DNA of 60,946 nt from Neisseria sp. Its GTDB lineage: Bacteria; Pseudomonadota; Gammaproteobacteria; Burkholderiales; Neisseriaceae. The translations under genes and the position numbers were made by a program. Positions within the stretch are counted from its first letter, which is position 1. Every line of letters starts with the position of its first letter. Shown one piece after another: positions 6,430 through 30,091 of the stretch. The DNA is taken from positions 1-60,946 of the forward strand of contig NZ_JAUMUI010000013.1 in NCBI RefSeq assembly GCF_030530745.1, read 5' to 3'. The notes beneath the pieces were generated by a model. That model had not been told where the DNA came from. It made no database searches and worked only from the letters and a program-made list of their open reading frames with translations.

Positions 6430-8241
6430 TTAATCCGGCTTTTTAAAATGCTTGCGGCGCTCGTGCTCTTGCAGGTAGCGCTTGCGCAGGCGGATGGATT
6501 GCGGGGTGATTTCCACCAACTCGTCATCGTCGATAAACTCGACCGCGCTCTCCAGCGTGAGCTTGATCGGCGTGGTCAGGCGCACGGCTTCGTCGGTGCC
6601 GCTGGCACGCACGTTGGTGAGTTTTTTGCCTTTGAGCGGGTTGACCACCAAGTCGTTGTCGCGGCTGTGGATGCCGATAATCATGCCTTCGTAGATTTTT
6701 TCGCCGGGCGACACGAACATGCGGCCGCGGTCTTCCAGATTCCACAATGCGTAAGCTACCGCTTCGCCTTGTTCCTGCGACACCAGCACGCCGTTGTGGC
6801 GGCCGGGCATATCGGGCTTCACGGGGGCGTAGTCGTCAAACACATGGCTCATCAGCCCCGTGCCGCGCGTCATGGTCATAAACTCGCCCTGAAAGCCGAT
6901 CAGGCCGCGCGCGGGGATGTGGTATTCGAGGCGGGTGCGGCCGTGGCCGTCGCTTTCCATATTGGTTAATTCGCCGCGGCGGCGGCCGAGTTCTTCCATC
7001 ACCGCGCCTTGGTTGTCGTCGGGCACGTCAACGGTGAGGTTTTCATACGGCTCGCATTTTTGGCCGTCGATTTCGCGGAACACCACGCGTGGTTTGCCCA
7101 CGGCCAATTCGTAGCCTTCGCGGCGCATGTTTTCCAACAGGATGGTCAGGTGCAGCTCGCCGCGGCCGGATACGCGGAAAATATCGGCGTCTGCGGTGTC
7201 TTCCACGCGCAGGGCCACGTTGGTGAGCAGCTCTTTGTTGAGGCGGTCGCGGATTTGGCGCGAGGTAACGAATTTGCCTTCGGTGCCGGCCAAGGGGCTG
7301 GTGTTGACCATAAAGTCCATCGTTAAAGTAGGCTCGTCCACGCTGAGCATGGGCAGGCCGACGGGGTTGTCTTTATCGGAAATGGTTACGCCGATGCCGA
7401 TGTCTTCCAAGCCGGAAATAATCACGATGTCGCCGGCTTCGGCTTCTTCCAGCGGCACGCGCTCGAGACCCTTGAAACCCAGCAGTTGGTTGATGCGGCC
7501 TTGTGCCACCTGTTTTTCGTGGTTCATCACGGCAACCACCTGACCGGGTTTGATGCGGCCGTTGAGGATGCGGCCGATGCCGAGGCGGCCGGTGTAGTTG
7601 TCGTAGTCGAGCTGCGAAATTTGCAGTTGCAGGGTTTCGTCGGCGCTGCCTGAAGGGGGCGGGGTGTGCTTCAGAATGGTTTCAAACAGCGGGCGCATGT
7701 CGCTGCTCTCGTCGCCCTCTTCCAGTTTGGCAAAGCCGGAAAGGCCGGATGCGTAAACGATGGGGAAGTCGAGCTGTTCGTCGGTGGCGCCGAGTTTGTC
7801 GAACAGTTCGAAAGTTTGGTCGATTACCCAGCTCGGGCGGGCGGAAGGTTTGTCGATTTTGTTGATCACCACAATCGGGCGCAGGCCGAGCGCCAAGGCT
7901 TTTTTGGTAACGAAGCGGGTTTGCGGCATCGGCCCTTCTTGGGCATCGACCAGCAGCACCACGCAATCAACCATGCCCAGCACGCGCTCCACTTCGCCGC
8001 CGAAGTCGGCGTGCCCGGGGGTATCGACGATGTTGATGTGGTAACCTTCGTATTCGATGGCGGTGTTTTTGGCGAGAATGGTGATACCGCGTTCTTTTTC
8101 GAGATCGTTGCTGTCCATCACGCGCTCGTCAACCTGCTGGTTGGCGCGGAAGGTGCCGGATTGGCGCAAAAGTTGGTCGACCAGCGTGGTTTTGCCGTGG
8201 TCGACGTGGGCGATGATGGCGATATTGCGGATTTGTTTCAT
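6430..8241 (-). CDS. typA: Translational GTPase TypA/BipA
   Basis: A 603-residue ribosome-associated GTPase of the EF-G family, involved in ribosome assembly and stress responses. The P-loop [10 protein letters not shown] is at 11-20, switch I has ERGITI, G3 is [12 protein letters not shown], and NKID supplies base specificity. EF-G-like domains III and V and the BipA-specific C-terminal domain ([13 protein letters not shown], ending in basic residues) are complete. Length matches E. coli BipA (607). It is monocistronic, with an AT-rich 470-bp spacer before the divergent bfrA. Confidence 0.97.
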
Positions 8242-21385: not shown

Positions 21386-21661
21386 TCAGCGTTTGTTGTC
21401 CTGCCGCCAAACCTGCCACAGCAGCAGGCCGGCGGCGGTGAAGATGCGGTGCTTCCGGCTTAAAGGCAGCAGCAGGCTTTTCCAGATCAGGTTTTGCGAG
21501 GGCAGGCCGTCGGCCAGGCCGAGAATGGTGTTGAAGCCGGTGTCGATCATGCTTTGCCGTTCGCGTGCCCGCTGCATTTTCAAACGCTCGGCGGTGATTT
21601 TCAAACGCGCCAGATCGGCCTGCAGTTCTAACAGTTTGCGTTCTTCATGCTTGGCGTTCAT
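21386..21661 (-). CDS. Small hypothetical protein, YqjK-like position
   Basis: A 91-residue protein. Residues 1-40 form a charged helix (KHEERKLLELQADLARLKITAERLKMQRARERQ). The rest has one weakly hydrophobic segment (RIFTAAGLLLWQVW, near the C-terminus). I do not recognise a named family with certainty. Its start overlaps the end of the upstream YqjE-like membrane gene by 17 bases, and E. coli yqjE is likewise followed by the small yqjK, so an envelope role is a guess. Confidence 0.65.
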   Translation of the reverse strand: MNAKHEERKLLELQADLARLKITAERLKMQRARERQSMIDTGFNTILGLADGLPSQNLIWKSLLLPLSRKHRIFTAAGLLLWQVWRQDNKR

Positions 21662-22058
21662 CGGTTTTTTCCTCCTTATCCTGCGCCGCCATGCCGCGCA
21701 GACAGGCGATATCCTGCTGCATTGCGCGCAGGGTGGCGGCTACTTGGGCGTTTTTGTTTTTCCATGAAGAAACCGACCATGAGGCCAACGCGGCAATCGC
21801 CAGCAGGCTGCAAACGGCCAGGCCGAAAAACACCCAGATTTTGGCTTCGCCGCTTAAAACATGGTTCAAACCCAACAGCAGGCTGATCATGCCGAACACG
21901 AACAATGCGCCCATCAGCACCACGGCGGCGAAAATCCGCACCACCGCGGCGGCTTGGTCGCTGACGTCCAGTTGCAGCATACGCAGCCGCAGCAGGAATA
22001 AATCTACGCCTTGGTTCAGCAGCACTTGGAAATGATTGATGTGTTGTTTCAAGCTCAT
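21645..22058 (-). CDS. Phage holin family / YqjE-like membrane protein
   Basis: A 137-residue protein with two strong membrane segments, about 45-68 (AVVRIFAAVVLMGALFVFGMI) and 78-100 (AKIWVFFGLAVCSLLAIAALASW), and a charged cytoplasmic C-terminus. The layout fits the YqjE/holin superfamily III proteins, which in free-living bacteria are stationary-phase membrane proteins and not phage lysis genes. No phage genes are near. I chose the ATG at 22058 (MSLKQHINHF), as the longer frame adds a non-conserved leader. It overlaps the next gene by 17 bases. Confidence 0.78.
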   Translation of the reverse strand: MSLKQHINHFQVLLNQGVDLFLLRLRMLQLDVSDQAAAVVRIFAAVVLMGALFVFGMISLLLGLNHVLSGEAKIWVFFGLAVCSLLAIAALASWSVSSWKNKNAQVAATLRAMQQDIACLRGMAAQDKEEKTDERQA

Positions 22059-22283
22059 GGGTATCCCTTTGGTTGGTGCCGGTATTGTTTGCCGCGGTGT
22101 TGCCGGTGTGGCAGAGGGTAGCACAAAAAGGCCTTTGGCTGCGTTCGAACGGCAAAAACAGTTTGGATCCGGTGCAAAGACTGCTGTGCGGTGGCGGCTG
22201 CCCTTCGCGGAAGGTGTACAGTATATTTATGACGGCGGCCGGGGGGCTTCAGACGGCCTGTTTCTTTCCGCCGTTTTATCTGC

Positions 22284-22916
22284 TCACTCAATCCCCGCCC
22301 ATTTGTGCGCCTGCACGCTCAACTGCCAATGCACGGCGGCATCGGGGCGGCTGTTTAACAGGCCGATTTGGCGGATGGTGTCGTAGATATTCATTTCGCC
22401 GTTTTGCTCGCAGGGCGAAAGATAATAATGTTCGGCGCGGATTTTCTGTTCCACCGCCGCGCAAAACGCCAGCACGTCGCCGTCGGCCACGATGCGCACT
22501 TCGTCCGCCTGTTTGATGCACTGCTTTTCATACTTGGCCGCATAGCAGGCTTTCGGGCTGGCGGCCACATAATCGATTTGCGGCGGTGCGGGATTTAACC
22601 CGTTGGTTTCCAGATACAGGCGGTAGCCGGCTGATTTCAAGGCATCGAGCAACACTTCCAAATGAGGCTGTATGGTCGGTTCGCCGCCGGTGATGATGAT
22701 GTTGCGGGCGGTATAACTTTTCAGACGGCCTAAAATGTCCGCAAGGCTCATCATCGTGAACGTGAGGTAATCGGTGTCGCACCAGGCGCAGGCGAGATTG
22801 CATTTGCCCAAGCGGATAAACATGGCGTTCATGCCGGTGTTGTAGCCTTCGCCTTGCAGGCTCTCGAAAATTTCGACGATGCGGTAAGCGGGGTTTTCGG
22901 GGAGGATTTCGGTCAT
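22284..22916 (-). CDS. queE: 7-carboxy-7-deazaguanine synthase
   Basis: A 210-residue radical-SAM enzyme that contracts 6-carboxytetrahydropterin to 7-carboxy-7-deazaguanine on the path to preQ0 and queuosine. The cluster motif is C39-x3-C43-x2-C46 (GKCNLACAWCDTD), preceded by the substrate-binding ESLQGEGYNTG (18-28) and followed by ITGGEPTIQ. Full length for the family. Its ATG overlaps the stop of the giant helicase gene by 4 bases (ATGA), so it depends on translation of that gene. It is the last gene of the que operon. An internal DUS encodes GRLKSY. Confidence 0.94.
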   Translation of the reverse strand: MTEILPENPAYRIVEIFESLQGEGYNTGMNAMFIRLGKCNLACAWCDTDYLTFTMMSLADILGRLKSYTARNIIITGGEPTIQPHLEVLLDALKSAGYRLYLETNGLNPAPPQIDYVAASPKACYAAKYEKQCIKQADEVRIVADGDVLAFCAAVEQKIRAEHYYLSPCEQNGEMNIYDTIRQIGLLNSRPDAAVHWQLSVQAHKWAGIE

Positions 22917-25900
22917 TTTTTAAGTTGTTCGGATTTGTCGGTTAACAGGTTCGGTTTGATAACAATCTGCGGCACCACTACCGTCCACCGATCCAAATCG
23001 GCAGGATAGGCTTCTTGGTAGGCAGTATCTTCCTGATCTCGGTAGCGTACATAAAATTCGGCGGCGCAAGCTTCGGTATCGGGCGGCAGCGGCGGTAAAT
23101 TTGCTTGTCTGGCCGTGCGTGCCACCACTTCGCCTGCTGCCAGAAACTCATACACCGCTCCGTTTGCGCGTATGTTCAGACGGCTGCCGGTTTGCAGGCC
23201 GGCAATGGCCCGCAGGCGGTTTTTGATATTGGCGGTTTGGGCGGGCCGTTGCCGGTCGCGGCCGGCAAAACCGATATCCAGCTCTTTTAATTCTAAAGTA
23301 CGGTATTCGGTGTCCCAATCCGGGCGGTGTCCGAAAGATTGCTGCACAGTTTCTGCATCCGACAGCAACGGCAGCCAGGCGTGTTGCGTGCCGGTATGCA
23401 GCAGGGTGAGCGTTTCAATGGCACGGGTCATGCCCACATAAAACAGGCGCCTGTTTTCACCGTTGTTATCCGAATGTTCCCAGCCGCCGTCTAAAATAAA
23501 AACGTGTTTGAATTCCAAACCTTTGGCGGAATGGACGGTGCCGATAAACAGCCCTTGTCTGCGGATATCCTCCAATTCGCCGGTATAGCCGTACAGCCAT
23601 GATTTGAGGTACCCGCCGCTGTAATATATATCGGCTTCGGCCGAATGTTCGGACGGCGTGAAGCTGTGTTCCGCAACAAAATCGTCAGCCATTTCGGCAA
23701 AGTGTTGTTGCCAGCCCGGGCAGACGGGTTGTTCGCGGACGATTCTGACAAAATCGGTGGCGGAAAGGTTCGGTGCGGCTTTGGCTTCAACGTCTTCTAT
23801 CAGGCGGACAAACTGGCGCAGCCGGCTCGGTCTCAGACTGCTTTTCTTGAAATAGGCGATATGGTTTTGTTCGCACCACGCTTGAACCGGCAGCAGGGTT
23901 TCATTGTGGAAGGCCAAAACGGCCATTTCCGACGCTTGCGCCCCAAACGCCTGCAAACGGCTGATTTCGGCAGCAACCGCCTGCGCCTGCCGGTTGTTTT
24001 TTTCACGGCGGCTGCCGTTGCCCGGCAACGAAATGATGCGTACGCGGCCTTGCCGTTCGGGGTCTTTGGCCGACCAAATTCCGCCCTTGGGTGCCGATTG
24101 GCGTTCGGGGTTAATCACGATCGGGTGCAGGCTTTTCAGACGGCCCGGCTGTGCCTGGATCACGCTGTTGGCGGCTTGGATAATGTGTTGGCTGCTGCGG
24201 TAGTTGAAGGTGAGAAAGTCGGGCTGTCCGACTTGGTAATCTTGGCAGAAACGCCGGATATATTCATTGCTGCTGCCGTTGAAAGCATAGATATTTTGGT
24301 CGTCGTCTCCCACGGCCAGAATGGTGAGTTTGTCGTCTTCTTCAGCCAATTGCCTTCCTGCCAGCGCAGAAACCAGCCGGTAATGCCGTTCGGTGATGTC
24401 TTGGTATTCGTCAACCAGAATATAACGGAAACCTGCCAGAATCCGGTCGCGCGCACCATCTTCTGAGGCATCGCTGCCCGGGCCGTCTGAAAGCAGGGCG
24501 GCGGCCTGTGCGCACCAGATTTCCAGCTGGCTGCCGATGTCGTCTCCGGCCGCTTTGGCGGTGGGCTTGTCGAAACGGACGCCCAGCAGGCGCATGGCCA
24601 TGCTGTCATAGGTTAACACGGTAACGGCGTTGGCCGTATGGCCGGCCAGTTCAAACAACCGGCGTTTGATTTCCTGCGCCGCATGACGGTTGAAGGTGAG
24701 CACGATAATGGCGGCCGGGTCGATATGCTGCACTTTGAGCAGATAGGCCGCCCGTGCCACAATCACGCGGGTTTTGCCCGATCCGGGGCCGGCCAGCACC
24801 AAACGGTTTTTCGGCTGTTTTTCAGTAACGATTTTACGCTGTACCTCATTCAGGCCGCCGACAATTCTGTTGTAACTTTCTTTGGAAACATTCTCTTCCA
24901 ATTCTTTCAGACGGCCTTTAAACCATTTGTTTTTAAATTCCTTCTCGCTGTATTCGAAATAATCGCCGACCAACTTCCAAGCATTGCCGATGTTTTCGAG
25001 GGCTTTTTTGGCATATTCCAGCATCACGTGGATTTGGAAACGCTTTTCGTCATAAAAATCCTGCAGCGGTTGGTAATCGCGCTGCAGATATTTGATTTTG
25101 GCTGCAACGGCATCCTGATTGAGGCGCAGGGTCATGGCGTGGCGCAGCACGGTCATGCCGTGGTTGAGTTTGAATACTTCCTGTTTGTGCATAAACAGCA
25201 GCGCCTGGTTGAGCAGCGTTTCACGCTTATCGGCCGGAATTTGCGCCGCCAAGGCCAAATCTTGATCCAACAGTGTTTTCAGTTCGCCGAACGTAGTTTC
25301 CGCCACCGCATCTTTACTGCGCACGCCGCCGGTTTTGCCGATTAAAAACGGCAGCACGGTTCGGCATATCTGCCGGCGCAAGGCGGCGCGTTCCGTTACT
25401 TCCTCCCAGCTGTCGCTTTGGTTTTTAAAGCGGATTTTCAGCATATCGTTGCCATAATCTTTGATTTCGAAACTGCCGCTGCTGTGTTTGCGGGCGTCTT
25501 TGTCTTGCGCCAGCGCGCGCAACAGCTGTTTTATTTCATTCGGATGCCATTCGTTTCCGCTGCCGGTTTCGCGGGCGGCACGGCACAGCGCCGAGGGCGA
25601 AAGGTTTTGCCAGATACCGCTGTCGGCATCAGGAATTTCGTTTTTCAACACCTGCCATACGGTTTCTTCCTGTGCCAATACTTCATTCAGCCGTTTTTCG
25701 GCAGGCCGGGCGGAGTCGGTGCGGATGTTGACGGTGATGTGGGTGTCGTTGCTCAAAATGTCCAGTTGTTCCATTTCGAGCAGCATCCCCCGCAGTTCCT
25801 CATAACCGCAGCCGGTGGCGGCGGACAGCGTATCGGTGCTCACGGCCTCGTTATCCGCCGCCTGATAGATGATTTCGGCCAGCGTTTGGTAGATTTCGCG

Positions 25901-28156
25901 CTTGCGTTGGGAAAGATCGGCTTGTTCGATTTTGGCCAGCGCCTGTCCGATATTCAGACGGCCTGAACGGGCGGGAAAAATGCGGGTGCGGTTTTCGGTG
26001 CGGCTCAATAATCCGGAGCGCTCCAACCAGGCGACGGCGGTTTTCACTTTGGTGTCGGCCATATTGTCGTCGCTGTCGAAACTCATGTATTCGCTGCTGT
26101 CGCGCAAAATTTCGCCGCTGCTGACCACCAGCTCGTCCGCACGGTTCAGCCGTTTGAGCCTGTTCCAGATTTGGCTCAAATCATTCCGTTCCAGCTGCGA
26201 CGATTTGTTCAGGCCAAATTGGGTGTCGATGTCTTGCCTGTCGAACAGCAAAACACATTTGGCTTGCTGCTGGTCGCGCCCGGCACGGCCGGCTTCCTGC
26301 AAATAGTTCTCCAGCGAGCCGGGAATTTCGGCATGGATCACCAAGCGCACGTCGGGTTTGTCCACGCCCATACCGAAAGCATTGGTGGCCACAATCACAC
26401 GCAAGCCGCCGTCAATAAACCGTTGCTGGATATCGGCTTTCTCATTGGGCTTCAAACCGGCATGAAAGTGCGAACACGCCCACTGCTGCATTTTCAAAAA
26501 TTCGCTGATTTCTTCGGTGCGCTTGCGGCTGGCGGCAAACACCACCGCGCCGCCGCTTTGGCCGCCCAATTCGCAGCTTAATAGCTCGTGAATACGCTGG
26601 TGCTTGCTCTCGCGCGGCGTGTCCAAAACCTCGTAGGACAAATTACTGCGTTCGTTGCCGCCGATAAATTGTTTGAATTCGATGCCCAGCTCTTCGCCAA
26701 AGTGGCGGGTAATATCGGCCAGAACATCAGGCTTGGCAGTGGCGGTAAAGCAGCTGACGGGGGCGGGCACTGCGTTTTCAGGCAGCCTGCTTTTGATGAA
26801 TTTGGCGGCATAGAGATAATCGGGGCGGAAATCATGCCCCCATTTCGACAGGCAGTGCGCTTCGTCGAACACCCAACCGTTGATCTGGCGGTGTTCGATG
26901 GCGCGGATAAAACTGCCGTTGCGAAACTGCTCCGGCGCGACAAACAGAATACCCACATCGCCCAAAGCGGTTTTATCCAACACATCCGCCCGTTCAGGCA
27001 CCGACAGCATGCCGTTTAGCGTGGCTACGCCGGTAATGCCGCGCCGTTGCAGGTTGTATACCTGGTCCATCATCAGCGACTGCAACGGCGACACCACAAC
27101 GGTTAGGCCGCCGTTGCGGAAATAGCGGTTGAGCGCCGGCAGTTGGAAGCACAGCGACTTGCCGCCGCCGGTAGGCAGTACCGCCAGCAGATGCTCGCCT
27201 TTCATACCGGCTTTCACAATGGCTTCCTGCCCGCCCTCCACATTTTGCACGGCGCGAAACGAAGAAATTTTACCGTCTTGCCCGAAATAACGGATCAGTT
27301 GCGCCGTCGGGTTTAAAATTTCGCGGCAATAACGGCAATGAGGATTACCGCAGTCGTGGTCGCGCAATTCGCGGATCAGACGGGCACTGTCGGGAAATTG
27401 GTGGCGCACCCACGGTGCCAATACCGAATTACCGCCGGACACCTTCAACCACGCCAACGTATACGCCAGCGGTATCTGTAATTTTTCATCGGCTAAATCG
27501 TGCGAACGCAAACGCGCCAAACGGGTCATGCAGACCCGTAACGATTTGCCGCCGCCGCTTCCGTCGGCATCGCTCAACATCTGTAAAACCGCCTGCTTGA
27601 GGGCATCTTGGCTCAATAGCGGCTCATCTGATACCAAACGGATATGGCGGCCGTCTGAAAACGGCAGTTCACCGAACAAGCGGCGGTATACGGCAAACTC
27701 TTGCGGCGCCGTTTCGCGTAATTTAGCGAAAGAAATACATTGATCGGTAAACAGCTGCCAACAGGCATAACAGTCGGCCAGCGGCGAATTAAGTGCCGAA
27801 GCGATCAGTTTATGGTTTTTAATCAGGCGGTGGTAAGGATTTTGCGGGAAAGCCAGCGGCGAGAGGCGTAAAGTGTCGATTACTTTGAGCGGATGCAGCA
27901 GCGATTGGGGCGCAGCTTGGCGCAGATAAGGCAAATCGTGCCCGATGATGTTGTGGCCCATCACATAATCCGCACCTTGCGCCATTTCTTCCAAACGGGC
28001 TAAGGCCGTCTGAACATCCGATGCCCTGTGTAATTTTGGGCTTTCGTATTGCACCCCCGTATCGGGGCGCAGCGCACCGATTTGCAAAAGCCGCTGCGTT
28101 TGCGGATGGATTTCCAGATCGACAATCAAAATTGGCGGAGTAATGTGGCTGTTCAT
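22913..28156 (-). CDS. DEDD exonuclease-like / RecQ / UvrD-type fusion helicase
   Basis: A 1747-residue protein with two complete helicase engines. Residues 8-150 look like a DnaQ-type 3'-5' exonuclease: IVDLEI (D13, E15), HNIIGHDLPYL near 70, and SPLADCYACW, where the expected His seems to be Asn. CGNPHCRYC near 269 is a possible metal site. A RecQ helicase follows: TGGGKS near 330, DEAHCLSKWGHDFRPDY near 434, and QEAGRAGRD near 622. A linker with helical, winged-helix-like parts covers 640-1110. A UvrD/Rep-type SF1 helicase follows: AGPGSGKT near 1124, VDEYQD near 1249, GDDDQNIYAF, HSAKGLEF and FYVGMTRA near 1575. I know no named pathway for this combination. It sits between DUF1304 and queE in a riboswitch-led operon. 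Base composition and internal DUS look native. Confidence 0.88.
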   Translation of the reverse strand: MNSHITPPILIVDLEIHPQTQRLLQIGALRPDTGVQYESPKLHRASDVQTALARLEEMAQGADYVMGHNIIGHDLPYLRQAAPQSLLHPLKVIDTLRLSPLAFPQNPYHRLIKNHKLIASALNSPLADCYACWQLFTDQCISFAKLRETAPQEFAVYRRLFGELPFSDGRHIRLVSDEPLLSQDALKQAVLQMLSDADGSGGGKSLRVCMTRLARLRSHDLADEKLQIPLAYTLAWLKVSGGNSVLAPWVRHQFPDSARLIRELRDHDCGNPHCRYCREILNPTAQLIRYFGQDGKISSFRAVQNVEGGQEAIVKAGMKGEHLLAVLPTGGGKSLCFQLPALNRYFRNGGLTVVVSPLQSLMMDQVYNLQRRGITGVATLNGMLSVPERADVLDKTALGDVGILFVAPEQFRNGSFIRAIEHRQINGWVFDEAHCLSKWGHDFRPDYLYAAKFIKSRLPENAVPAPVSCFTATAKPDVLADITRHFGEELGIEFKQFIGGNERSNLSYEVLDTPRESKHQRIHELLSCELGGQSGGAVVFAASRKRTEEISEFLKMQQWACSHFHAGLKPNEKADIQQRFIDGGLRVIVATNAFGMGVDKPDVRLVIHAEIPGSLENYLQEAGRAGRDQQQAKCVLLFDRQDIDTQFGLNKSSQLERNDLSQIWNRLKRLNRADELVVSSGEILRDSSEYMSFDSDDNMADTKVKTAVAWLERSGLLSRTENRTRIFPARSGRLNIGQALAKIEQADLSQRKREIYQTLAEIIYQAADNEAVSTDTLSAATGCGYEELRGMLLEMEQLDILSNDTHITVNIRTDSARPAEKRLNEVLAQEETVWQVLKNEIPDADSGIWQNLSPSALCRAARETGSGNEWHPNEIKQLLRALAQDKDARKHSSGSFEIKDYGNDMLKIRFKNQSDSWEEVTERAALRRQICRTVLPFLIGKTGGVRSKDAVAETTFGELKTLLDQDLALAAQIPADKRETLLNQALLFMHKQEVFKLNHGMTVLRHAMTLRLNQDAVAAKIKYLQRDYQPLQDFYDEKRFQIHVMLEYAKKALENIGNAWKLVGDYFEYSEKEFKNKWFKGRLKELEENVSKESYNRIVGGLNEVQRKIVTEKQPKNRLVLAGPGSGKTRVIVARAAYLLKVQHIDPAAIIVLTFNRHAAQEIKRRLFELAGHTANAVTVLTYDSMAMRLLGVRFDKPTAKAAGDDIGSQLEIWCAQAAALLSDGPGSDASEDGARDRILAGFRYILVDEYQDITERHYRLVSALAGRQLAEEDDKLTILAVGDDDQNIYAFNGSSNEYIRRFCQDYQVGQPDFLTFNYRSSQHIIQAANSVIQAQPGRLKSLHPIVINPERQSAPKGGIWSAKDPERQGRVRIISLPGNGSRREKNNRQAQAVAAEISRLQAFGAQASEMAVLAFHNETLLPVQAWCEQNHIAYFKKSSLRPSRLRQFVRLIEDVEAKAAPNLSATDFVRIVREQPVCPGWQQHFAEMADDFVAEHSFTPSEHSAEADIYYSGGYLKSWLYGYTGELEDIRRQGLFIGTVHSAKGLEFKHVFILDGGWEHSDNNGENRRLFYVGMTRAIETLTLLHTGTQHAWLPLLSDAETVQQSFGHRPDWDTEYRTLELKELDIGFAGRDRQRPAQTANIKNRLRAIAGLQTGSRLNIRANGAVYEFLAAGEVVARTARQANLPPLPPDTEACAAEFYVRYRDQEDTAYQEAYPADLDRWTVVVPQIVIKPNLLTDKSEQLKK

Positions 28157-28186
28157 TGTTTATTATGGAAAATATTTCAGACAGGC

Positions 28187-28558
28187 CTAAGCATATACTG
28201 GGGTGGCCAGAAACGCCAACAGCGCGGGCAAGCCCTGTTTGATGAGAATCCCTTTGTTTGAGGTAACGGCTCCCCAAAGGGCGGCGGTTATCACAAAGCC
28301 GAGAAACAGCAAGGTGGCTTCGGCACGGGCATTTTGCGGCGCGAAAAACTGCGCCCATACGATGCCGGCGGCCAGAAAGCCGTTATACAGCCCTTGGTTG
28401 CTGAACATCACCTGCACGCGCTTTTGCTGCATAAATTCTTCGGGCAGGCCGAAAATGCGCGCGGCCTGCGGGCTGGGGATTTTGCACATTTCGAGATACA
28501 TAATATAAAAATGTTCGGCGGCCACGATTAAGGCCAATACGGTTGCTAAGGTTTGCAT
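28187..28558 (-). CDS. DUF1304 family membrane protein
   Basis: A 123-residue integral membrane protein with about four hydrophobic segments. The N-terminal ALIVAAEHFYIMYLEMC and the middle QVMFSNQGLYNGFLAAGIVWA are hallmarks of the DUF1304 family, which has no assigned function. Its first 13 bases overlap the end of queD, and the helicase gene starts 30 bases after it, so it is part of the que transcript. A link to preQ precursors is not established. Confidence 0.85.
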   Translation of the reverse strand: MQTLATVLALIVAAEHFYIMYLEMCKIPSPQAARIFGLPEEFMQQKRVQVMFSNQGLYNGFLAAGIVWAQFFAPQNARAEATLLFLGFVITAALWGAVTSNKGILIKQGLPALLAFLATPVYA

Positions 28559-28983
28559 GGTTCAGTTCCTTCATATTCGGCGCACGAGGTGGGGGTTTCC
28601 CACAGTTTGACGCTGCACACGGGCAGGCCGGCGGCTTTCAGACGGCCGTAGATCTCCACACTCAGGTTTTCGGCGGTGGTGCGGCGGTTCAGGCGCAGGG
28701 TTTTCATCTGCCAGCCCTCCAGCAAGGCGGCGATCTGGCTTTCGCGCGCGTTGCCGCCGTGGTAGATGAAGGCGTGGTCGAACGGCTCGATAACGGTTTG
28801 TTTGACAATGGTTTTCAGGTCGGCGAAATCCATCACCATGCCCGCTTTGGTGCCTGCTTCGATCAGGCCGTCTGAAACGGTGATTTCGAGCGAATACGTG
28901 TGGCCGTGCAGGTTTTGGCATTTGCCGTCGTGGCCGTTGAGCATATGGGAGGAATCGAAGGTGAAGATTTTGGTGATTTTCAT
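28546..28983 (-). CDS. queD: 6-carboxytetrahydropterin synthase
   Basis: A 145-residue enzyme of the PTPS family that turns 7,8-dihydroneopterin triphosphate into 6-carboxytetrahydropterin, the substrate of QueE. Zinc ligands are His in FDSSHML (about 13) and the HGHTYSLE pair (about 26-28). The catalytic Asp-His is in FDHAFIYH, and the C-terminal [11 protein letters not shown] carries the pterin-anchoring Glu. The ATG at 28983 overlaps the queC stop by 4 bases; a longer upstream frame is the queC shadow. Two DUS lie inside the gene (VSDGLIEAG and GRLKAAG). Confidence 0.93.
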
Positions 28984-29636
28984 GCTGTTTTGCCCGCCAA
29001 GTATTCTGTTAAACCGCGCTCGCGCAGCACGCAGCTCGGGCATTCGCCGCAGCCGCCCGCCACGCCGTGGTAGCAGGTGTGGGTGTGTTCGCGGATATAG
29101 TCCAAACAGCCTAACTCGTCGGCCAGCGCCCAGGTTTGCGCTTTGGTGAGGTACATCAGCGGTGTGTGGATTTGGAAATCGTAGTCCATCGCCAGATTGA
29201 GGGTAACGTTCATCGATTTGATGAAGATGTCGCGGCAGTCGGGGTAGCCGGAAAAGTCGGTTTCGCACACGCCGGTAATCAGGTGGCGGGCGTTACGGCT
29301 TTTGGCGTAGATGGCGGCGTACAGCAGAAACAGGGCGTTGCGGCCGTCGACGAAGGTGTTGGGCACACCGCCTGCGGGGGCTTGGATTTCGGCGGTTTCG
29401 TCCATTAGCGCGTTATGGGTGATTTGCTGCATCAGGCTCAAATCGAGCACGGTTTGGCGTACACCCAAATCTTGGGCGATCCAGCGGGCGCGTTCCAGCT
29501 CGATGGCGTGGCGCTGGCCGTATCGGAAGGTGATGGCTTCAACGTTGTCGTTGCCGTATCGGCGGATGGCCTGAATCAGGCAGGTGGTGGAATCCTGGCC
29601 GCCTGAAAAGACGACCACGGCTTTTTGAGGGTTCAT
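28980..29636 (-). CDS. queC: 7-cyano-7-deazaguanine synthase
   Basis: A 218-residue ATP-dependent enzyme that makes preQ0 from 7-carboxy-7-deazaguanine and ammonia. The PP-loop [10 protein letters not shown] is at 9-18, and the C-terminal zinc site is [15 protein letters not shown] (about 187-201). Length is usual (E. coli 231). It is the first gene behind a preQ1-I riboswitch whose tail holds its ribosome-binding site, so the end product of the pathway should repress it. It overlaps queD by ATGA. Confidence 0.95.
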
Positions 29637-29643
29637 GGCGGGT

Positions 29644-29681
29644 TCCTAGTTTTGTTGTCGCGGGATGGATTGCGAACCGCG
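29644..29681 (-). promoter_or_regulatory. PreQ1-I riboswitch of the que operon
   Basis: Read on the minus strand, the leader has P1 (CGCGG paired with CCGCG) closing the loop TTCGCAATCCAT. The A-rich tail ACAACAAAACTAGGA follows. This matches the preQ1-I aptamer layout: short stem, U-C-rich loop, A-rich tail, pseudoknot with the tail end. The T. tengcongensis aptamer, as I recall it, has the same loop start (TCGCA) and tail (AACAAAAC). The tail's AGGA is the ribosome site, about 10 bases before the queC ATG, so ligand should block translation. Confidence 0.85.
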
Positions 29682-29700
29682 TGCGGCGAAGAAAACGGCG

Positions 29701-29706
29701 ATTATA
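29701..29706 (-). promoter_or_regulatory. Probable -10 element of the que operon
   Basis: A perfect TATAAT on the minus strand lies about 20 bases upstream of the riboswitch stem, so transcription would start just before the aptamer. No convincing -35 box is seen; the expected position overlaps a DUS. Confidence 0.5.
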
Positions 29707-29721
29707 ACCGATTAAAGGTTT

Positions 29722-29757
29722 CAGGCCGTCTGAAAGCATTTTTTCAGACGGCCTGAA
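29722..29757 (-). terminator. DUS inverted-pair terminator after grxD
   Basis: Inverted CAGGCCGTCTGAAA arms with a short T-rich loop lie 26 bases past the grxD stop on the minus strand and just upstream of the que promoter. Confidence 0.65.
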
Positions 29758-29782
29758 AGTTTTAATCAAGCATGGTGTACGG

Positions 29783-30091
29783 TTATGCTTTCAAGGCTTC
29801 CTGCAGTTCGCCGGCTTCAAACATTTCCATCATGATGTCCGAGCCGCCCATGAATTCGCCGTTGATATACAGTTGCGGAATCGTCGGCCAGTTGCTGTAT
29901 TCCTTGATGCCTTGGCGCACGGCTTCGTTTTCCAGCACGTTAACGGTAACGAAGTCTTCACAGCCTGCGGCTTGCAGAAGCTGCACGGCGCGCGAAGAGA
30001 AGCCGCATTGCGGAAACTGCTTGGTGCCTTTCATAAACAATACCACGCGGTGGGTGGTAACCACTTCTTTAATCTGCTCTTGGATGCTCAT
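29783..30091 (-). CDS. grxD: Monothiol glutaredoxin, Grx4 family
   Basis: A 102-residue CGFS-type glutaredoxin that carries [2Fe-2S] clusters between assembly and target proteins. The active-site CGFS has Cys29, followed by the glutathione-binding WPTIPQLYINGEFMGGSDI (about 68-86). Length is near E. coli GrxD (115). It is monocistronic, bounded by a DUS terminator downstream and a Correia-like element upstream. Confidence 0.95.
   Translation of the reverse strand: MSIQEQIKEVVTTHRVVLFMKGTKQFPQCGFSSRAVQLLQAAGCEDFVTVNVLENEAVRQGIKEYSNWPTIPQLYINGEFMGGSDIMMEMFEAGELQEALKA

Follow-up and report, generated by a model that had tools for sequence, protein, structure and literature searches.

A predicted two-motor fusion of exonuclease-like, RecQ and UvrD parts in a Neisseria que operon: a widespread accessory gene, most likely captured as a single-gene cassette

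The human WRN protein carries an N-terminal DEDD-type exonuclease domain ahead of its RecQ core on one chain, and the motor of DNA2 belongs to helicase superfamily 1B (SF1B). DinG is an XPD-like helicase, not a RecQ-type one, and lacks a UvrD part. In resection, BLM and WRN act with DNA2, so that a RecQ motor works with an SF1 helicase-nuclease (PMC5030094), and DinG of Bacillus is described as a DEDD exonuclease domain fused to a superfamily 2 (SF2) helicase (PMC12525004). A gene that joins an exonuclease-like domain, a RecQ-type motor and a UvrD-type motor in a single frame is present in Neisseria sp. (assembly GCF_030530745.1) on contig NZ_JAUMUI010000013.1, of which positions 1 to 60,946 of the forward strand, all 60,946 nucleotides, are referred to below as the window. 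This fusion probably encodes an intact accessory two-motor enzyme that processes DNA ends or forks in defence or repair, and it was probably captured by the preQ1-riboswitch que operon of its host as a single-gene cassette. The reading is based on the architecture, the conserved motifs, the folds of the predicted models, the exonuclease homology, the occurrence in many phyla with a patchy distribution, the existence of several insertion sites and of empty sites, the base composition and DNA-uptake words of the gene, and the defence genes near copies elsewhere. The gene and its parts are as follows.

22913..28156, minus strand: exonuclease-like/RecQ/UvrD fusion gene, a single intact frame from ATG, 1747 amino acids (aa)
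27542..28156, minus strand: DEDD exonuclease-like domain, about residues 1-205, with D13, E15, D74 and D128 kept and N123 in place of the catalytic His/Tyr
27326..27532, minus strand: four-cysteine site (C209, C269, C274 and C277), invariant in 49/49 sequences, a candidate zinc or Fe-S site
26219..27247, minus strand: RecQ-type SF2 helicase core, residues 304-646, catalytic residues kept
24857..26209, minus strand: linker of about 450 residues, no family from profile searches
23387..24856, minus strand: UvrD/Rep-type SF1A helicase, about residues 1101-1590, catalytic residues kept
22952..23194, minus strand: small C-terminal beta domain, about residues 1655-1735, predicted

From the N- to the C-terminus the order is thus exonuclease-like fold, four-cysteine site, RecQ motor, long linker, UvrD motor and beta domain. 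An earlier sequence-only reading of the window had proposed a triple-domain fusion in one frame of 1747 residues, and this was borne out: the frame is open from its ATG, and the RecQ and UvrD parts exceed Pfam or NCBIfam cut-offs. Broken or split copies of the gene exist elsewhere, as would be seen if an assembly error or frameshift had joined two genes, the error which that reading had named as fatal to the fusion. All four helicase motifs lie within one open reading frame in 64 of the 80 genome loci kept and in 7 of 11 viral-contig loci, and in 16 of 21 plasmid records the match spans at least 80% of the protein. The remaining genome loci comprise 5 truncated at a contig end and 11 without at least one of the motifs, a group that includes broken genes and variant motifs; the remaining viral-contig loci comprise 3 truncated in this way and 1 without at least one motif. 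Since the same fused frame recurs across loci, an artefact is so improbable that it can be set aside.

WRN, the BLM/WRN-DNA2 pair and the AddAB, AdnAB and RecBCD machines are the closest functional parallels. As in WRN, an exonuclease-like domain precedes the RecQ core, and the WRN helicase core is among the sequence and fold matches of the fusion. The fusion differs by an added UvrD-type motor and by an exonuclease-like domain that aligns with DnaQ-type enzymes and lacks the His/Tyr; the WRN exonuclease itself was absent from the best 60 of 192 matches of the sequence search and from the 13 listed in the N-terminal PDB profile search. BLM/WRN-DNA2 also pairs a RecQ motor with an SF1 motor, which in the fusion lie on one polypeptide, but the SF1 motor here is a UvrD-type SF1A, and no RecB-type nuclease was matched by Pfam. 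Unlike AddAB, AdnAB and RecBCD, the fusion is one chain with a RecQ-type second motor and another nuclease fold. Bacillus DinG offers a bacterial likeness as a fusion of a DEDD exonuclease with an SF2 helicase. DpdF and PsyrT/RqlH are RecQ-like helicases of defence systems, and their PADLOC models score against the RecQ-like core of the fusion; however, only the RecQ part is matched, and the NCBIfam cut-off for DpdF is not reached.

The DnaQ-like start proposed earlier holds for the fold and the four acidic residues and fails at the fifth catalytic residue. Profile-profile alignment (hhalign) of the N-terminal domain with the exonucleases of PF00929 gave a probability of 95.8% (E 7e-9), against 0.1% for the linker of the fusion itself, the sole control run. 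The acidic residues D13, E15, D74 and D128 are invariant in 49/49 aligned sequences, and the order of strands and helices in the predicted model fits the DEDD exonuclease fold, with residues 104-120 poorly modelled. Alignment and model together indicate a DEDD exonuclease fold with four putative acidic metal ligands. Alone, the N-terminal domain stays under the Pfam thresholds, RNase_T being matched weakly by 6 of 47 relatives (best E 0.017), and its PDB profile search returned only sub-threshold matches, in which DEDD exonucleases were intermixed with glutathione transferases. N123 aligns with the catalytic His column in hhalign, and the His/Tyr position of motif III is occupied by Asn in 44, Ser in 4 and Ala in 1 of the 49 sequences. 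Judged by this alignment, the fusion lacks the catalytic His/Tyr that defines DEDDh and DEDDy exonucleases. The CxxxxCxxC motif noted earlier is real and belongs to the four invariant cysteines C209, C269, C274 and C277.

Both helicase motif sets described in the sequence-only reading were recovered in full. The RecQ core has complete SF2 motifs and scores 304 bits with NCBIfam TIGR00614 (cut-off 219.8), and the UvrD part keeps its motif residues and matches PF00580 (130.6 bits) and PF13361 (63.5 bits), both above cut-off. The RecQ equivalog TIGR01389 gives 336 bits (cut-off 640.2). The C-terminal zinc cysteines of RecQ are absent: past residue 640, Cys occurs in more than half of the sequences at column 1428 only (29/49). 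No RQC or HRDC domain was matched by Pfam at E 0.01 in the full protein, the linker not having been folded and searched separately, and against PDB profiles the linker gave weak regulator-like matches only, the best being a metal-dependent regulator (E 0.0058). The fusion is not an orthologue of UvrD, Rep or PcrA, whose equivalogs score 98-168 bits vs cut-offs of 911-1168. Fold searches with two models were filled by helicase cores, and the exonuclease-like, linker and C-terminal parts were barely probed by fold.

The fusion family is widespread across many phyla, and its distribution is patchy, as in an accessory, mobile gene. At E 1e-100 or better, the fusion has matches in 9 of the 47 genomes of the genus and in 12 of the 84 of the family; of 199 phylum genomes, 8 have one, the window genome among them. 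A genome scan with the N-terminal alignment confirmed at least 590 of 597 candidate stretches, 80 of which were kept; a scan with a single protein as query gave zero confirmed matches. Phage records with a match number 16; in none does it cover 80% of the protein, and in the ten listed it is confined to the RecQ part. The E. coli collection contained no DNA match (distant mode) to window positions 24500-28156. The best other genus match to the window fusion, at 73%, is in genome G006. One genus copy is interrupted by an internal stop, and another is divided between two contigs. In a tree of 32 rows, the window and G006 copies are sisters with support of 100, and the nine genus copies form one group with that of Lautropia dentalis. 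The two copies that the tree includes from elsewhere in the family group with one from a Bacteroides plasmid, on a distant branch. The L. dentalis copy (L113, 10001-16200) is a frame of 2096 aa, and its clustering with the Neisseria copies suggests transfer between genera. In seven relatives (L115, L116, L120, L157, L159, L160 and L166) the first frame is shortened to 473-934 aa and a later frame usually has more of the gene, as one would expect if the gene is accessory.

At least four insertion sites are used within the genus, without a partner gene common to all. One is shared by G005, G040 and G023 and another by G024 and G027, and G022 and G008 have only one flank in common. A recurrent partner was sought in 91 loci and none was common; the largest clusters were fusion remnants (8 loci) and one family in 7 of the 91 loci, which lies within 4 kb of the fusion in 4 of them.

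In the window, the fusion gene is located in an operon with genes of the preQ0 pathway.

29640..29686, minus strand: preQ1-I riboswitch aptamer of the que operon, E 1.1e-5, 38.8 bits (gathering score 39)
28980..29636, minus strand: queC, PF06508 at 258.5 bits
28546..28989, minus strand: queD, TIGR03367 at 96.8 bits (cut-off 89.25)
28187..28558, minus strand: DUF1304 gene, PF06993 at 128.1 bits
22284..22916, minus strand: queE, Radical_SAM above cut-off; QueE models are the best matches yet fall below their own cut-offs
22917..28204, minus strand: segment missing from the empty sites of G011, G029 and G012, which have 14 bp instead; borders read by eye

The order queC-queD-DUF1304-fusion-queE, the ATGA overlap with queE and the riboswitch ahead of the operon are as previously described, the aptamer falling slightly under its gathering score. 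This position, together with the scores of the RecQ part against DpdF models, is what could speak for a functional tie, in which the fusion would act with, or respond to, a DNA modification derived from preQ0 or preQ1. Such a tie is very unlikely. Of the 47 genus genomes, 44 gave que loci (three fragmentary genomes were left out), with matches to queD in 44, queE in 43, queC in 34 and DUF1304 in 30, and the fusion lies within the que locus in two only (window and G006), the other 42 being without it. No que genes were found in the fetched flanks of the other seven genus carriers, and among 112 loci records que genes adjoin the fusion in the window and G006 only. The records hold duplicates (L112 of L024, L114 of L026) and the two halves of one gene (L028 and L029), and flanks of at least 3 kb on both sides were available at 53 of 91 fetched loci only; at the remaining loci the absence of que genes is weaker evidence because the flanks are short. 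The preQ1 aptamer also occurs in G006 and in the fusion-free loci L071, L073 and L076 (34-39 bits, all slightly below the gathering score). The window genome has one match to the TGT family (PF01702) and so gives no sign of DpdA, although a very divergent DpdA could escape this model; the DpdF equivalog scores 186 bits vs a cut-off of 550, and the fusion is not assigned to the Dpd 7-deazaguanine system. The sequence-only reading had offered 7-deazaguanine DNA modification as one explanation of the operon and had itself proposed the genome survey as its check. With 2 of 9 genus carriers and 2 of 112 records positive, the survey goes against the que link, and the modification link, given also the fusion-free operons and the single TGT-family gene, is not supported.

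Three side observations concern these loci. L077 and L088 contain a 74-residue match to the RecQ part inside another gene. The gap between queC and queD across the genus loci (L071-L111 and L056) ranges from -6 bp to 6.7 kb and is a second variable slot in the que locus. At L143 a QueC-like gene (6630-7187, 30% identity) lies upstream of the fusion; we take it to be possibly a QatC-type defence gene.

Operon capture, another of the options raised earlier, is what the data show, since near relatives have empty sites. In three relatives with a 97-100% identical QueC (G011, G029 and G012), the DUF1304 gene leads directly to queE via GTGTGGGGCGC(A/G)GC-ATG. In the window, the 14-bp stretch between DUF1304 and queE is replaced by a 5.3-kb cassette consisting of a short leader and the fusion gene. 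The leader resembles G021, a fusion-free genome where DUF1304 ends similarly (VYA) and a DNA-uptake word is present; the final codons of the fusion gene are like the queE leader of G021. The ATGA overlap is most simply explained by insertion into the spacer ahead of queE. Seven DNA-uptake words GCCGTCTGAA occur inside the fusion gene (1.33 per kb vs 1.67 in the window), and its third-position G+C content is 0.644 vs 0.725-0.787 in queC, queE and argC. Directly upstream of the gene, a simple sigma-70 scan detected nothing promoter-like. A minimal mobile element of Neisseria is a variable gene between conserved flanks that lacks an integrase and is moved by homologous recombination. What bears on this for the fusion is its presence at 2 of 44 que loci, the others being empty of it; recombination between the flanking genes would be the simplest route of entry. 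The que-operon position is most likely a capture, an accident of insertion, after which transcription would probably be borrowed from the riboswitch-controlled operon without a functional tie to queuosine. Between a glutaredoxin gene and the que riboswitch, at 29719-29758, two DNA-uptake words form an inverted pair that has a T-rich tail.

The defence option of the sequence-only reading is retained on grounds unrelated to queuosine, namely the patchy single-gene distribution and the defence genes among neighbours elsewhere. PADLOC was run at 1e-10 on 135 near neighbours (within 1.5 kb), 58 far genes (at least 5.5 kb up- or downstream) and 126 control proteins, the last from arbitrarily chosen stretches of 19 carrier genomes, clustered in 14-kb blocks. 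The results are the first 25 families of 243 (near), 136 (far) and 132 (control), so the near and far counts are lower bounds. RtcR was excluded because it is an RNA-repair regulator, and PDC-S05 because it also occurs in the control. At least eight near families have a best E below 1e-100 (GajA, REase_III, MTase_I, HNH, ZacA, PDC-S45, AbiEii and MkoB), as do at least four far families (REase_III, PglX, MTase_III and PDC-S14). In the control set, among families listed, PDC-S05 alone passes this level, with weaker Specificity_I (1e-50) and PDC-S23 (5e-48), and GajA, REase_III, HNH and ZacA are absent from the families better than 4e-40 in the 126 control proteins. Single proteins account for GajA at L135, a type III restriction enzyme at L199, HNH at L185 and ZacA at L129, and a weaker SoFic match lies in an L131 neighbour. 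The type III restriction enzyme of the far set is several kb from the Neisseria bergeri copy (L112). The neighbourhoods of relatives thus appear richer in defence genes than control stretches, which is suggestive, though not proof, of residence in defence islands. At L177, L185 and L190 an HNH nuclease gene lies 15-32 bp from the fusion, and that of L185 alone passed PADLOC at 1e-30. The Gabija system was not recognized: no GajA-like product was found by Pfam among the seven window genes at 21386-30091, the rest of the window and genome lying outside that search.

It is possible, and is put forward tentatively, that the fusion belongs to an undescribed class of genome defence, a single-chain resection machine (RecQ, UvrD, cysteine cluster and Asn-type DEDD domain) that is mobile as a one-gene cassette and would act on foreign DNA ends or forks. 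Such a chain would accomplish alone what complexes, either RecBCD or a RecQ helicase with DNA2, achieve elsewhere. An accessory role in repair or recombination without a specific defence function (end resection, fork restart or handling of incoming transforming DNA) is a real but doubtful alternative. RecQ and UvrD/Rep motors are established repair helicases, Neisseria is naturally transformable (as is documented for N. meningitidis), and the nearest genus-level neighbours scanned are mostly non-defence genes. However, other contigs of the window genome (2.28 Mb) already carry stand-alone RecQ-like, UvrD-like and Rep-like genes (the last two names interpret SF1 matches of 740 and 678 aa), the gene is patchy even within its genus, and relatives lie near defence genes more than controls do.

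Several points weigh against the favoured reading of a two-motor enzyme in defence or repair. The Asn in place of the catalytic His argues, from the alignment, against an ordinary exonuclease. A HIRAN domain, a candidate for the C-terminal beta part, was absent from the families that Pfam returned. The defence signal around the fusion is modest, with four strong neighbours traced singly and up to eight distinct families among those listed, of 135 neighbours. When ten chosen near neighbours were scanned singly, four, including two HNH candidates, gave no match at 1e-30. Both in the window and at the other genus sites, most of the closest genes scanned belong to metabolism or RNA repair; at G006 and the other genus sites, 8 of 10 neighbours matched Pfam families, which include LeuA, methyltransferases, an MFS transporter, Thg1 and RtcR. 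The enzyme activity of the family is itself predicted, and no report of it was found. At L026 (6243-7100) and L027, of Neisseria sicca type, the fusion begins where a Thg1 gene ends or shortly after it, and an RtcR gene comes after the fusion.

RecQ and UvrD are 3'-to-5' motors. In the proposed two-motor enzyme, both would therefore run 3'-to-5' either in tandem on one strand or one on each arm of a fork, and would open DNA ends or stalled forks. Because the metal ligands are present and the usual base is missing, the DEDD module may bind 3' ends, trim the 3' strand slowly or be inactive. The role would be to process invading or damaged DNA, as defence against mobile DNA or as accessory repair.

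The RecQ-UvrD architecture is not named in the available portions of the open-licence literature searched, including PMC5512222 and PMC9122126, and no described function for the family was found. Annotated plasmid records label the fusion "RecQ family ATP-dependent DNA helicase" or RecQ only, a label that conceals both the UvrD half and the change in the exonuclease site. With helicases of two superfamilies and an exonuclease-like domain on one chain across phyla, the fusion offers a single-gene model of DNA end resection that can be tested, and is a candidate one-gene defence system. Its copy in the que operon illustrates the capture of a 5-kb gene by a riboswitch-controlled operon.

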